Source: Basidiobolus heterosporus B8920
Lineage: Eukaryota; Basidiobolomycota; Basidiobolomycetes; Basidiobolales; Basidiobolaceae
Direction: 5' to 3'
DNA: 27,153 nucleotides
NCBI GenBank assembly: GCA_000697455.1
Contig: JNET01033829.1
Coordinates: forward strand, 1 to 27,153
Positions 1,725 through 17,728 of the stretch are shown here, one piece after another. The notes under the pieces were generated by a model. It was not told where the DNA came from and searched no databases. It was given only the letters and a program-made list of their open reading frames with translations. Both the position numbers and the translations under genes were made by a program. Position 1 is the first letter of the stretch, and each line of letters starts with the position of its first letter.

Positions 1725-3561
1725 CTAAGGACTACGTAAAACTGTCTGAGCATAACTAAGAAAACTAACCGGCGATTTGGAAGGTTTACTCCTTTTGGGG
1801 AACAACTCTGGTGATATGTCTACGTGCTTTCGTTTAGGGAATAGATCGGGTGATACACTGGGTCGATCTGTAGGGAATAATTCGGGAGAAATATCAGTCG
1901 GCTGAGGATTCCATTTCTTAGGTGTGGTTTGACAGGGCAGTCGCTCCTCGATGGGTGTTGAGGCTGAGGTGGAGGTGGAGGTGGAGGTGGAATTGTGGTT
2001 CTTTGAGGAAGGCGGAGATGGTTCTTTTGTTGGGGAATCATCGAAATTTAAAAGTCGTTGAATAGATGTTTGGATTCGTGTTTTTGAAGTAAGAAAAGTG
2101 GGAGAAATTAAAATTGGTGATGAAGATTGGGAAGATTTGGGAGGTTTGGGAGGTTTTTTACAATCATACGATAAGGAAGTCTCGTATTTCGAGTGCAACT
2201 TTTCTTTGCAAATAGTTTTGTAAATTGTGTCACTTTGCGCACACTTCGAATCTTCGTGGTTTGATTTTTCTGGCTCAATAGTGTTACCAGGTGGCTTTAC
2301 GGGGTCATTTACTGCCGTTGATGGAATATCTCTACTAGGTCTGAGTGTTTTGTTTACTGGTCTATCAACCGGGTTCTTGTCGCTGATTTCACATTCACCG
2401 CTGATCGTTGTGATAGCTGGGCAGTGTCGGTTTACTCGTTTGGTATCTGATTTGGGAATAAATGAGGTTTTATTCTTCACTGCCTCCTTGAACATAGATG
2501 GAGTTGAGCCATGGTCAGGCTCTGTAGATACCACCAGATTACCTAAGATAAGGTTAGCTTGAGGGGGAACATAGAAGAATGAAATCAACTTTACCTTCTT
2601 TTACTTTCATTAGTTTTTTGATCTTACGCTTCTTGGCATTGAGGAGATCTGTGAACTAAATGGGCGGTGTGAGTTGGCGAAATGAACAACAGAAGCAAGG
2701 CCCGAGAAGTTACCTTGTGGATCATAATCAACTCCATTTCGTTCTTATCCTTAACCAAGGATTCTAATTTTTGGTGTAACAGATGATTGGTGTTCTTAAG
2801 TGAGTCAAATTGCTGTTGAATTCTTTTGTTCTTCTCCTAAAGTTAATGAAAATACACACTGGTAAATGTTAAGTTTTCCTTGATGCGGGTGTAAAAATTA
2901 GGTGCAACCTTGTAATTACTTTGTTCACACATCCATGCATCCAGCCAGTTTCTCCACTCAGTTAGAGTAGTCTGCTCTTCTAACCGAGGAAGCATTAGGC
3001 AGCCCAATGTGTACTGCCAAAGAGAGACACGTTCAATCATTGTAGTGAGGAACTTTACGCTGCTCATCATTACAAACCTTATTCCCTTTCTCAAACACAA
3101 GACTCCATTTCAGGATTTTCTTTGTAGCGAACAAGTAAACTATTAGAAAACGTCCTGGGGTAGAGTAGACAACCAAAATCTTACCGAAGACCCATAGGGT
3201 GCATCCGTATGATTTTCCTCGATCGTGCAATAGACCTCTTCCTGGTGTTCACTTGGTAGTCCAGAGAATGTCTGTTCAGTCAAGTTTAGGTAGTCTTCAG
3301 GCTTCATATGACCTGGTTTCCCTTTGAGCAGCTCATCTATACTAACTAAGCCCCATATTAGCCAAACAAGAGACCGCTGGTTACGTAGAATTTCGTCCAC
3401 CGACCTGTTTGCTTCCAGAATGACGTACAATTTGTCAATGTTAAGGCCAACGAGGAGGGTCTTTCAACATGGTTCATCCAGACTGTTCGCAGATAATAAG
3501 TCTCATGATTGACTATCAGTCTGATGAGGGAATTTCGGGTAACAGGTGAAGGAAGGCTCAT
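1725..3561 (-). CDS. XRCC4: XRCC4/Lif1-family non-homologous end-joining protein, 7 exons
   Basis: Predicted 488-residue nuclear scaffold for DNA ligase IV in non-homologous end joining. Exons: 3561-3405, 3345-3185, 3119-3078, 3013-2909, 2836-2714, 2655-2595, 2542-1725. The head domain (about 1-140) follows the XRCC4 pattern: a LIRLIVNHETYYLRTVW strand, TNCTSFWKQTVSIDELLKGK, then YTLGCLMLPRLEE matching the SFRLGSFNLEKVE strand of human XRCC4. A coiled coil follows (EKNKRIQQQF..., about 142-203). It ends in KFTDLLNAKKRKIKKL, the counterpart of the conserved LNEKKTKI segment next to the ligase IV site. The 280-residue tail is disordered, with a Ser-Thr run and three SPELFP-type motifs. Intron 1 has a weak donor (GTCGGT) and intron 4 a GTTGCA donor, so those joins are less certain. 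The last intron could also end 15 nt earlier in the same frame. Confidence 0.82.
1969..1992 (+). repeat. Hexamer repeat (GGTGGA)x4 inside the XRCC4 tail
   Basis: Four exact GGTGGA copies. On the coding (minus) strand they encode an alternating Ser-Thr run in the disordered C-terminal tail. Such in-frame hexamer tracts often vary in copy number between strains. Confidence 0.85.
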
Positions 3562-3757
3562 GAGAAATTCATTCAGTCAACATCTCTTTTGTAAATCTCA
3601 CACTTCCCCTGTCCCGAATGTTCATGGGGAAAAATCCAAATTATAAACAAATGTTGAACCAATCAATTAGAGTTAAGAATATTTTATTATTTTACAATTT
3701 CGGCTCGGATCTGAAAAAAGAAGAGTCAATAAAAGGATTTCTAGTATATGGATTCGT

Positions 3758-3859
3758 ACAACAAACAGTCAGAAAAACCAAAAAGGCTCAAAATTTCTCG
3801 GCATCGTGTTTCCGAATTAGCATGGAATATTTTGATTGTATCATCATACCATGTGTTGT
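3758..3859 (-). ncRNA. C/D-box snoRNA 3 (intron C), predicted 18S rRNA guide
   Basis: C box ATGATGA (3847-3841), D box CTGA (3772-3769), terminal stem ACAACA (3859-3854) with TGTTGT (3763-3758). A D'-like CGGA (3814-3811) follows a guide complementary to ATTAGCATGGAATA (plus strand 3816-3829). That is a 14-nt exact match to conserved fungal 18S rRNA, in the segment preceding GAATAGGACG. The fifth-nucleotide rule predicts methylation of the A in AUUA-GC. This is the region of yeast 18S Am796 (snR53), but I could not count the position to prove identity. A C'-like CGATGCC lies between D' and D. About 102 nt. Confidence 0.72.
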
Positions 3860-3989
3860 GTATCGCAGTATTGAACAAAGATAATTACCTCTAGTCAAGA
3901 TCTTGGAATCACCTCAGTAGGCATATTTCAGTAAATATCTACAAATTCTAAGGAATAGTTAGTAAGGAAATTCAATTATAGGCATATTA

Positions 3990-4077
3990 AATGTCGGTTG
4001 GATCAGGGAAATGATTTTTTCAACCTTATGGTTCAGTATTTGATAGTACTTTTCCAAGCATCATATCGACCGACATT
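3990..4077 (-). ncRNA. C/D-box snoRNA 2 (intron B), predicted 18S guide equivalent to human SNORD4 site
   Basis: A perfect 9-bp terminal stem, AATGTCGGT (4077-4069) with ACCGACATT (3998-3990), brackets C box ATGATGC (4064-4058) and D box CTGA (4006-4003). An internal D' box CTGA (4036-4033) directly follows a guide whose complement, TATTTGATAGTAC (plus strand 4037-4049), equals 13 nt of fungal 18S rRNA near position 120. The nucleotide opposite the fifth guide position is the last U of UAUUU. By alignment this is the site of human 18S Um121, guided by SNORD4A/B; S. cerevisiae 18S has no methylation there. The C box deviates at its last base (C for A). About 88 nt. Confidence 0.75.
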
Positions 4078-4218
4078 CAAAGCAAATTAGACTACCACTT
4101 ACATTAGACTGGAATGAATTGGAGCATTCGAGCAGATAGAAATCTAGGTAAAGATCTGTAAGCAAAGAAAATGGAAGTTAATACATGGTAAAAGAGTAGC
4201 ACTGTTTCCAATTGTGTA

Positions 4219-4308
4219 AGTGGACTCAGATTTTTGGCTGTGTGCTTATAGTATCGCCATGGATAAGATAGTCCGACTGGGGCGGCAAAGCAATCATCAT
4301 ATCACACT
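4219..4308 (-). ncRNA. C/D-box snoRNA 1 (intron A), predicted 25S rRNA guide, snR190-like
   Basis: C box ATGATGA at 4300-4294 and D box CTGA at 4229-4226. Terminal stem AGTG (4308-4305) pairs with CACT (4222-4219); beyond it, CCATTGT upstream and ACAATTGG downstream extend the pairing with one bulge. A D'-like box CGGA (4275-4272) directly follows a guide CCGCCCCAGT(C), perfectly complementary to GACTGGGGCGG, a conserved string of large-subunit rRNA domain V. A G-U pair and further matches may extend it. The fifth-nucleotide rule points to the second G after ACU in that string. Yeast snR190 is known to pair with this part of 25S, so this is a possible functional equivalent. About 90 nt. The D-box guide (GCACACAGCCAAAAAT) has no target I recognise. 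Confidence 0.7.
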
Positions 4309-4353
4309 GTACAATGGTAAAATAAAGTGTAAAATAAATGAAGGACACTTACC

Positions 4354-4728
4354 AAGCTGCAAAGAATGATAGAGAATAGCTTACAGGATCTACAGATATA
4401 TATAGTACTATTTGAAAATCAGGGTTCCCCTGCTGAACGGTATTCGTTCTTTTTTTCCGATGAAAAAAATTTGAGATGTGAAAGTGATTGGCTATGATGT
4501 CTCTTGCTTATTAAAGCAGGGTTTATTGATATTTGTAGGTCTCTAAGGTTAGGGTGTTCATGGTTAAGACTTATGTTAATGTGTATGTACAATAAGCTTG
4601 GAATTCGCGCATTCAATCAAATCATATATATTTCCATACATTTTCCCGTACATTCCTCCCGTAAAATGCCAAACAGAATCAAAAATGCCATTCCATGTAG
4701 TTTGTATAGGTGCCATGTATAATAGTGA
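4354..4728 (-). promoter_or_regulatory. Promoter region of the snoRNA host gene (telobox, CCAAT, TATA)
   Basis: No protein gene is seen here; it separates the ARFRP1 stop from host exon 1. On the minus strand, in order: telobox-like CACCCTAACC (4556-4547), CCAATCA (4491-4485) and TATATATA (4404-4397), ending about 45 nt before the first splice donor. Tbf1, which binds RCCCTAA, is a known activator of snoRNA genes in yeasts, so the telobox fits the cargo. Factor binding is inferred. Confidence 0.5.
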
Positions 4729-5626
4729 CTAACGTAAAACTGGGGGTCTATGTTCAACGTTGCGTTCCAAACGAAAATGTAGCCAATCGATAGCCTCCTT
4801 AACTCCTTCACTGTGAATTAATATGGTACCAATTTTAAAGAATTGTAAGGGAGAAAGAAGGCAACTACTAAATCTACTTACCCAGTGAGTGCTGAGATGG
4901 GCATGACTTTACTATCACGAGCATCTAGACTTAGTGCAATTTTGTTAAAAATCTCCTTGATTTCCTCTACTTTGAGTGCATTGGGTAAATCTTGTTTGTT
5001 AGCCAACATGATAACGGGAACTCCTTCAGTGGAATCGTGTGCTACCATACTCTCTACACGAAGTAATAAAAAAGTAATGCGATAACTGAGTATTCTGAAA
5101 TGCAATCAGCCCAAGCAAAGATGGCTAGTTACCGAATGCTTCACGGCACTCTTGAAGTCTTGAAGAGTCGGTTGAATCAACCACGAATACTATGCCATGA
5201 CATTCCTTATAATATTTTTCCCACAAAGTACGCAAGTCCCTTTGTCCTCCCAAATCCCAAAAATTCACTCGACTTTTTCCAACAACAATCTTTCCAACTA
5301 ACGTAGGACTGCGTTAACCATCAATAACAAAAGAACACGGCCATCAACCAACTCGTGACAAAGAGAGTAAGCCACTTACTATTTAAACCCACTGTGGGGG
5401 CAATCTTTTCTGGCGCAAGACCCTTGCTACCTGTAAAGATGTTTTTAATCCTCTCTAAAAGGGTCTTGAGAAGTAAGAGGTAAGCAAGAAGTTTAGTGTG
5501 TACTCTACAAAAGGAAATATTCTGCTTGCTTACAGTTTTCCCGGCATTGTCTAAACCCAGAATGATCACATAGTATTCTTCAGTTCGAGTCATGTATTTA
5601 TAGAAGCCATTGAGTAATGTATACAT
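4729..5626 (-). CDS. ARL3: ARFRP1/Arl3-type small GTPase, 5 exons
   Basis: Predicted 198-residue Arf-like GTPase acting at the trans-Golgi, where the yeast and animal members recruit Arl1 and its golgin effectors. Exons: 5626-5534, 5464-5380, 5297-5133, 5053-4882, 4810-4729. The start MYTLLNGFYKYM is typical of ARFRP1/Arl3: there is no Gly2 for myristoylation, and the family is N-acetylated on Met followed by Tyr. G motifs: P-loop GLDNAGKT at 24-31, switch 1 APTVGLN at 53-59, WDLGGQ at 73-78, NKQD at 133-136, SALTG near 170. The C-terminal helix ends in RNVEHRPPVLR, resembling the RNVHRPPRQR tail of human ARFRP1. Human length is 201. Every junction keeps the frame and the family alignment. 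UCH lies 207 nt upstream on the same strand. Confidence 0.93.
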
Positions 5627-7547: not shown

Positions 7548-8210
7548 ATGTCTGCCCTTCGTCTCGGTAGTGTTGCCCCAGATTTCGAAGCCAAGACCAC
7601 TAAAGGTCCCATCTCCTTCCACAAGTGGATCGGTGATTCCTGGGCTGTCTTATTCTCCCACCCGGCTGACTTCACTCCGGTGTGCACCACTGAACTCGGC
7701 GAGGTGGCCAAACTCTCCCGCGAGTTCGAGAAGCGTGGAGTGAAGGCCATCGGCCTGTCCACCAACGACTTGGGTGACCACGAGAAGTGGATCGAAGATA
7801 TCAATGAGGTCGGTAACGTTGACGTTCAGTTCCCCATCATCGCCGATGCTGACCGTAAGGTAGCCACACTCTACGATATGCTGGACTCTGAGGAACATGA
7901 CGCTAGTAACGTCGTGAACGGTATCCCATTCACCGTTCGTAGTGTGTTCATCATCGACCCAGCCAAGAAGATTCGCCTGGTCATCGTTTACCCGGCCAGC
8001 TGCGGACGCAACTTTGACGAGATCCTTCGAGTCATCGACTCGCTTCAGCTCAGCGACAAAAAGAAGATCGCCACTCCCGCCAACTGGACACCCGGAAAGG
8101 ATGTGATTGTTCATGTGAGCGTGAGCAACGAGGAGGCTGAGAAGGAGTTCCCCGGGTTCAGAGAAGTGAAGCCCTATCTTCGCTTTGCCTCTCTACCCGA
8201 GGACTCCTAA
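7548..8210 (+). CDS. 1-Cys peroxiredoxin (Prx6/Prx1 type), intronless
   Basis: A 220-residue thiol peroxidase that reduces hydrogen peroxide and organic hydroperoxides. Complete in one exon from ATG to TAA. The active site DFTPVCTTELG places the peroxidatic cysteine at Cys46, with the conserved Pro and Thr before it. The Prx6 C-terminal signature (PANWTPGKDVIV, then KPYLRFASLPEDS) is present. No mitochondrial presequence is seen, so a cytosolic location is likely, unlike yeast mitochondrial Prx1. A second cysteine (Cys152) lies in YPASCGRNFDEI, where most family members have Ser or Thr. The gene stands out because it is the only complete gene without introns and has strong C/G-ending codon bias, which suggests high expression. 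An AATAAA signal follows at 8311-8316. Confidence 0.96.
   Translation: MSALRLGSVAPDFEAKTTKGPISFHKWIGDSWAVLFSHPADFTPVCTTELGEVAKLSREFEKRGVKAIGLSTNDLGDHEKWIEDINEVGNVDVQFPIIADADRKVATLYDMLDSEEHDASNVVNGIPFTVRSVFIIDPAKKIRLVIVYPASCGRNFDEILRVIDSLQLSDKKKIATPANWTPGKDVIVHVSVSNEEAEKEFPGFREVKPYLRFASLPEDS

Positions 8211-11620: not shown

Positions 11621-17728
<6,108 letters not shown>

Follow-up and report, generated by a model that had tools for sequence, protein, structure and literature searches.

In Neurospora crassa, 45 of the 55 box C/D snoRNA genes are intronic, and five clusters lie in host genes likened to UHG and gas5 (excerpted text of PMC2780460). Three further clusters in non-coding hosts, all of them intronic in Euascomycetes, Basidiomycota and Rhizopus oryzae, are described in the excerpted text of PMC3596301. 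Since the layout has been published for Neurospora, other Ascomycota, Basidiomycota and Rhizopus, it is already known in fungi, including fungi outside the Dikarya.

The locus reported here was found on the minus strand of the window, which is the whole stretch of 27,153 bases that was analysed, and no earlier description of it was found in the papers searched on Basidiobolus snoRNAs or on intronic fungal snR67/snR53 clusters. Like Neurospora clusters I-V, it would carry intronic C/D snoRNAs in a host with short open frames only, but its snoRNA content is different, and the excerpted text of PMC2780460 describes no cluster with this trio. It also resembles fungal clusters I-III (snR78-72, snR57-55-61 and snR41-70-51), which are intronic snoRNAs in non-coding polycistronic hosts, also outside the Dikarya; in contrast, its snoRNAs are different ones, and Basidiobolus is not among the fungi described in the same excerpts of PMC3596301. 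In NCBI taxonomy, Basidiobolus stands in a phylum of its own, Basidiobolomycota. An earlier reading of this DNA, made from the sequence only, had set the layout against that of baker's yeast, where most such genes are independent or polycistronic; that contrast holds, but among fungi such a layout was to be expected (PMC2780460, PMC3596301, both in excerpt). The locus would add a member from a Basidiobolus-like fungus, with a different set of snoRNAs that includes a predicted 18S U122 guide. It would extend the one-snoRNA-per-intron non-coding host to a Basidiobolus-like lineage, which is consistent with a layout that is old in fungi and a yeast arrangement that is derived.

The predicted spliced unit between two neighbouring genes

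The unit spans about 4370-3665 and lies between an Arf/Arl-like gene, in which all three pieces at 5644-4881 match Pfam Arf (two above the cut-off), and a gene weakly resembling XRCC4. Three candidate introns, all with GT...AG borders, separate four short exons that have no open frame, and TATA-like and AATAAA motifs bracket the whole:

4396..4404, minus strand: TATA-like element (TATATATAT), candidate host promoter
4353..4370, minus strand: exon 1, 5' end approximate and placed from the TATA-like element, donor GTAAGT at 4352
4156..4352, minus strand: intron 1, 197 nt, GTAAGTGT...GCTTACAG (GTAAGT...CAG)
4103..4155, minus strand: exon 2, 53 nt, non-coding, with stops in every frame of the spliced models
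3948..4102, minus strand: intron 2, 155 nt, GTAAGTGG...TTCCTTAG (GTAAGT...TAG), branch-like CTAAC at 3962
3889..3947, minus strand: exon 3, 59 nt, non-coding, with stops in every frame of the spliced models
3711..3888, minus strand: intron 3, 178 nt, GTAATTAT...TTTTTCAG (148 nt with the alternative acceptor 3741)
3665..3710, minus strand: last exon, after acceptor 3711, 3' end approximate, including the poly(A)-like signal
3683..3688, minus strand: AATAAA, putative poly(A)-like signal, one of two AATAAA in 4735-3550 of this strand

Each of the two spliced models, which measure 191 and 221 nt at our choice of ends, has stops in every frame. The sequence-only reading had described a chain of splice sites without an open frame, and the sites were found as it gave them. 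Of its intron lengths, 148-197 nt, those of 197 and 155 nt stood, whereas the third intron probably ends at acceptor 3711 (TTCTTTTTTCAG) and measures 178 nt rather than 148 nt. We prefer 3711 because it lies 58 nt from the D box, close to the 70 and 55 nt found in introns 1 and 2; a pyrimidine-rich run is present at this acceptor, and acceptor 3741 would leave 28 nt after the D box of snoRNA 3. As reference introns, we used those of the INO80 gene: two Basidiobolus INO80 proteins were aligned to the window by intron-aware dynamic programming, with introns of 40-260 nt allowed. The two alignments agreed on 12 introns, each 53-77 nt long, with 9 TAG, 2 CAG and 1 AAG acceptors. Because TAG acceptors are so common here, the TAG at 3741 is also a legal acceptor, and because all 12 INO80 introns are so short, the host introns appear longer by about a snoRNA. 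The distance from donor to C box is 52, 38 and 41 nt in introns 1, 2 and 3. Such spacing, with 38-52 nt before the C box and 55-70 nt after the D box, suits a route in which splicing is followed by trimming.

The candidate promoter is a weak guess, since another TATATA is present at 4630-4625 on the same strand. The presumed host start (4353-4375, minus strand) is pyrimidine-rich, reminiscent of the 5'TOP starts of vertebrate snoRNA hosts.

One snoRNA candidate was found per intron, in a chain of exons without a long open frame, as in hosts of the UHG/GAS5 type. A non-coding spliced host is thus supported as the best reading of the sequence, and we consider it highly probable that RNA polymerase II transcribes the locus as a small gene of its own, with non-coding exons and three intronic guide snoRNAs. 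Alternatively, the snoRNAs might be genuine but lie in introns that the downstream XRCC4-like gene carries in its 5' untranslated region. This gene is on the same strand, with a possible first ATG at 3561, about 150 nt from acceptor 3711. Such an arrangement is improbable: the AATAAA at 3688-3683 falls between that acceptor and the ATG, and there is little support for the start of the gene or for its identification (Pfam XRCC4 below the cut-off, E=0.16). Still less probable is that the upstream Arf-like gene has a long 3' untranslated region with these introns in it. The open frame of that gene ends at 4729 on the same strand, about 380 nt before donor 4352, but the other AATAAA, at 4527-4522, and the TATA-like element at 4404-4396 both intervene.

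Box C/D candidates in the three introns

The separate host gene remains the preferred reading, and every intron in it contains a single candidate box C/D snoRNA with a C box, a D box, a terminal stem and a guide next to D' of at least 10 pairs on surrogate RNAs:

4221..4305, minus strand: snoRNA 1, ends approximate (C 4300-4294, D' CGGA 4275-4272, D 4229-4226), from Rfam snR67 and the scan
4276..4286, minus strand: predicted snoRNA 1 guide for the LSU P-loop, 10 Watson-Crick pairs and one G-U to E. coli 23S (ACUGGGGCGGU), with G at +5
3989..4078, minus strand: snoRNA 2 including its terminal stem of 10 pairs (C 4064-4058, D' CTGA 4036-4033, D 4006-4003), from the scan, fold energy (z -3.62) and inverted repeat
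4037..4047, minus strand: predicted snoRNA 2 guide for 18S U122 (yeast numbering), with 11 Watson-Crick pairs on the 18S in record L004
3764..3852, minus strand: snoRNA 3, ends approximate (C 3847-3841, D' CGGA 3814-3811, D 3772-3769), from the scan and guide match
3816..3829, minus strand: predicted guide of snoRNA 3 to 18S A796 and U6 snRNA, 14 Watson-Crick pairs to yeast-type 18S

D boxes are present in all three candidates (at 4229, 4006 and 3772) and an exact C box in two, ATGATGA at 4300 and 3847; that at 4064, ATGATGC, is off consensus in its last base. This base lies outside the k-turn core, hence ATGATGC may still work. The boxes thus stood in every intron where the sequence-only reading had placed them. 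Its inverted-repeat flanks were recovered as terminal stems with an unbroken run of 6, 10 and 6 pairs (G-U pairs counted), but introns 1 and 3 have short ones, and a general inverted-repeat search listed the flanking repeat of intron 2 only. The guides of 11-14 nt that it had proposed next to D', all to rRNA, came to 11 (one G-U), 11 and 14 pairs on the surrogates, that of intron 3 fitting U6 as well.

We scanned both strands of the 27,153 bases for a C box, a D box, a terminal stem (5 pairs or more) and a Watson-Crick guide (10 nt or longer) by D or D' (at most one change from CUGA). The last base of the C box could be A, C or T, a relaxation made because intron 2 requires it. The scan returned three matches, all in the host introns, whereas 100 dinucleotide shuffles yielded 0.07 on average and never more than 2, a result in favour of the intronic, one-snoRNA-per-intron non-coding host proposed earlier. 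With a laxer scan (stem 4, guide 9), the same three matches were obtained and the shuffles then gave a mean of 0.65 and a maximum of 4. Under a strict RTGATGA, introns 1 and 3 only retained a guide of at least 10 nt and candidate 2 was lost. When the guide condition was dropped and any last C-box base accepted, six candidates with C and D boxes and a stem of at least 5 pairs were found, and the best guides of the other three measured 8, 8 and 0 nt. The target RNAs were also shuffled: none of 300 sets equalled all three guide lengths, and 13, 4 and 0 of 300 reached those of snoRNAs 1, 2 and 3 singly. The guides of snoRNAs 3 and 2 are therefore the stronger evidence, and snoRNA 1 leans more on its Rfam match. 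Fold energy compared with shuffles was strong for unit 2 (z -3.62) and unremarkable for units 1 and 3 (z 0.07 and -1.43).

An Rfam check of the locus had been suggested. The search gave 17 matches listed up to E=10 (1201 bases searched), and only snR67, for intron 1, fell below E=0.5; the other 16 were at chance level (E 0.66 to 8.2). At curated cut-offs there was no Rfam match in the whole window, so routine annotation could miss the locus. That the motifs fell together by chance in intergenic DNA and encode no snoRNAs is scarcely credible: the folding of units 1 and 3, no better than shuffles, the lack of an Rfam match above a curated cut-off and the shuffle counts of the lax scan would fit it, but the sequence and target shuffles, the snR67 match and the landing of guides on published methylation sites speak against it.

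Predicted rRNA and U6 targets

In intronic C/D snoRNAs, fibrillarin methylates the target nucleotide opposite guide position 5. As surrogate targets, we used a yeast-type 18S of 1800 nt (record L004), E. coli 23S and C. elegans U6 as printed in the excerpted text of PMC10516052. The 18S of L004 covers Rfam positions 1-1831 of 1831 and was taken as that of S. cerevisiae by its length and sequence. No D-side guide was reported for any of the three snoRNAs on these 18S, 23S and U6 surrogates at the threshold used. Motifs of eukaryotic U6, 18S and 28S gave no match in viral contigs in any of three scans. Records L003 and L004, named Brenneria and Planomonospora, look contaminated, because they are bacterially named and carry eukaryotic 18S rRNA.

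SnoRNA 1 matched Rfam snR67 with 31.9 bits and E=3.1e-4, a value that covers 1201 bases and would be roughly 20 times larger for the whole window. We call it snR67-like because the score is below the curated cut-off (gathering score 55). With the snR67/U31/AtsnoR35 family (Rfam clan CL00053), it shares the D' guide, the CGGA D' box of the family consensus and the P-loop G target; in contrast, it scores 31.9 bits against a cut-off of 55, and the Rfam alignment shows divergence at the yeast snR67 D-side guide, which is not clearly kept. Its +5 nucleotide is position 2252 of rrlA, a gene whose 2905 bases are one more than in the usual numbering, and is probably E. coli G2251. E. coli Gm2251 is equated with yeast Gm2619, with an Arabidopsis C/D guide named, in Table 1 of PMC11542601 (in excerpt), and U31, AtsnoR35 and snR67 are grouped for the P-loop G site, with numbering off by a few nucleotides, in the excerpted text of PMC3511168. 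The P-loop G of the LSU (yeast Gm2619) is thus the predicted target. A 19-pair match of snoRNA 1 by CTTA at 4267 was set aside, as it includes four G-U pairs and a poor D' box.

The +5 nucleotide of snoRNA 3 is 18S A796, the snR53 site (PMC3511168; PMC11542601, Tables 1-2; PMC2780460, Table 1; all in excerpt). Like that of snoRNA 1, it coincides with a yeast-methylated site listed in the excerpts of these three papers. SnoRNA 3 shares the D' guide to A796 with snR53/AtsnoR53Y (Rfam clan CL00080). Unlike snR53 itself, it had no Rfam snR53 match among those listed up to E=10, and we name it snR53-like because homology rests on the guide. The Rfam snoU6-53 alignment to it is at chance level (E=0.66) and shares CCAUGCUAAU. 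On the C. elegans surrogate, the same guide forms 10 Watson-Crick pairs with U6, or 11 with one G-U, and U6 snRNA is probably an additional target beside 18S. The Neurospora snoRNA CD11, which is intronic and has both 18S Am793 and U6 Am47 listed for it by D', is a direct precedent for such a double target (excerpted text of PMC2780460). The U6 nucleotide of CD11 would be the same as that of snoRNA 3. A role as U6 and not rRNA guide was overruled by the longer 14-pair 18S match at the snR53 site, and the rRNA target of the sequence-only reading is upheld. A 23S match of 12 pairs that lies upstream of the snoRNA 3 C box was rejected, as it does not adjoin a D box.

The +5 nucleotide of snoRNA 2 is 18S U122 on the yeast-type surrogate, and by eye two further bases of its guide match the 18S of record L001. 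By our count along the sequences, we take human Um121 and plant Um123 to correspond to yeast U122, and the human guide of 18S Um121 is presumably SNORD4. SnoRNA 2 would act on the same nucleotide as these human and plant guides, but no such family was recognised among the Rfam matches listed up to E=10. Arabidopsis Um123 is listed together with human Um121, and the yeast entry is blank, in Table 2 of PMC11542601 (in excerpt); no 18S site near 120 is listed for Neurospora in the excerpted Table 1 of PMC2780460. SnoRNA 2 is a predicted fungal guide for the Um121/Um123-equivalent 18S site, which is mildly new and predicts a testable fungal 18S methylation. We suggest tentatively, at a little short of even odds, that an early-diverging fungus has kept the guide for this human and plant site, which the lists for baker's yeast and Neurospora lack; such a site would go back to the ancestor of fungi and have disappeared, together with its guide, in the line to the studied Dikarya, and one host transcript would tie ribosome and U6 modification together.

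Proposed maturation and other genes of the window

We infer that the unit is transcribed, that the host pre-RNA would be spliced and the lariats debranched, and that exonucleases would trim each debranched intron to an expressed box C/D snoRNA protected by core proteins on the C/D k-turn, the exon chain being a by-product. Fibrillarin would then be guided to 2'-O-methylate the P-loop G of 28S (snoRNA 1; yeast Gm2619), 18S U122 in yeast numbering (snoRNA 2; human Um121) and 18S A796, probably also the matching A of U6 snRNA (snoRNA 3).

Several other genes of the window were observed. The XRCC4-like candidate (about 3561-1725, minus strand; Pfam E=0.16 as above) has a later coiled-coil-like piece and repeated SPELFPKR-type motifs near its end. 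At 846-1334 on the minus strand, a SIS-domain protein resembles the N-terminus of glucokinase regulatory protein (Pfam GKRP_SIS_N), in a fungus. The INO80 chromatin-remodelling ATPase gene, with its 12 introns of 53-77 nt, occupies 11624-17728 (minus strand); identity over its N-terminal frame reaches 79% with B. meristosporus and 74% with B. ranarum. For the peroxiredoxin at 7548-8210, identity with a Basidiobolus ranarum protein is 93%. These values place the window in Basidiobolus or a near relative of it. INO80 is nearer to B. meristosporus, whereas the peroxiredoxin stands closer to B. ranarum entries (93% vs 80%).
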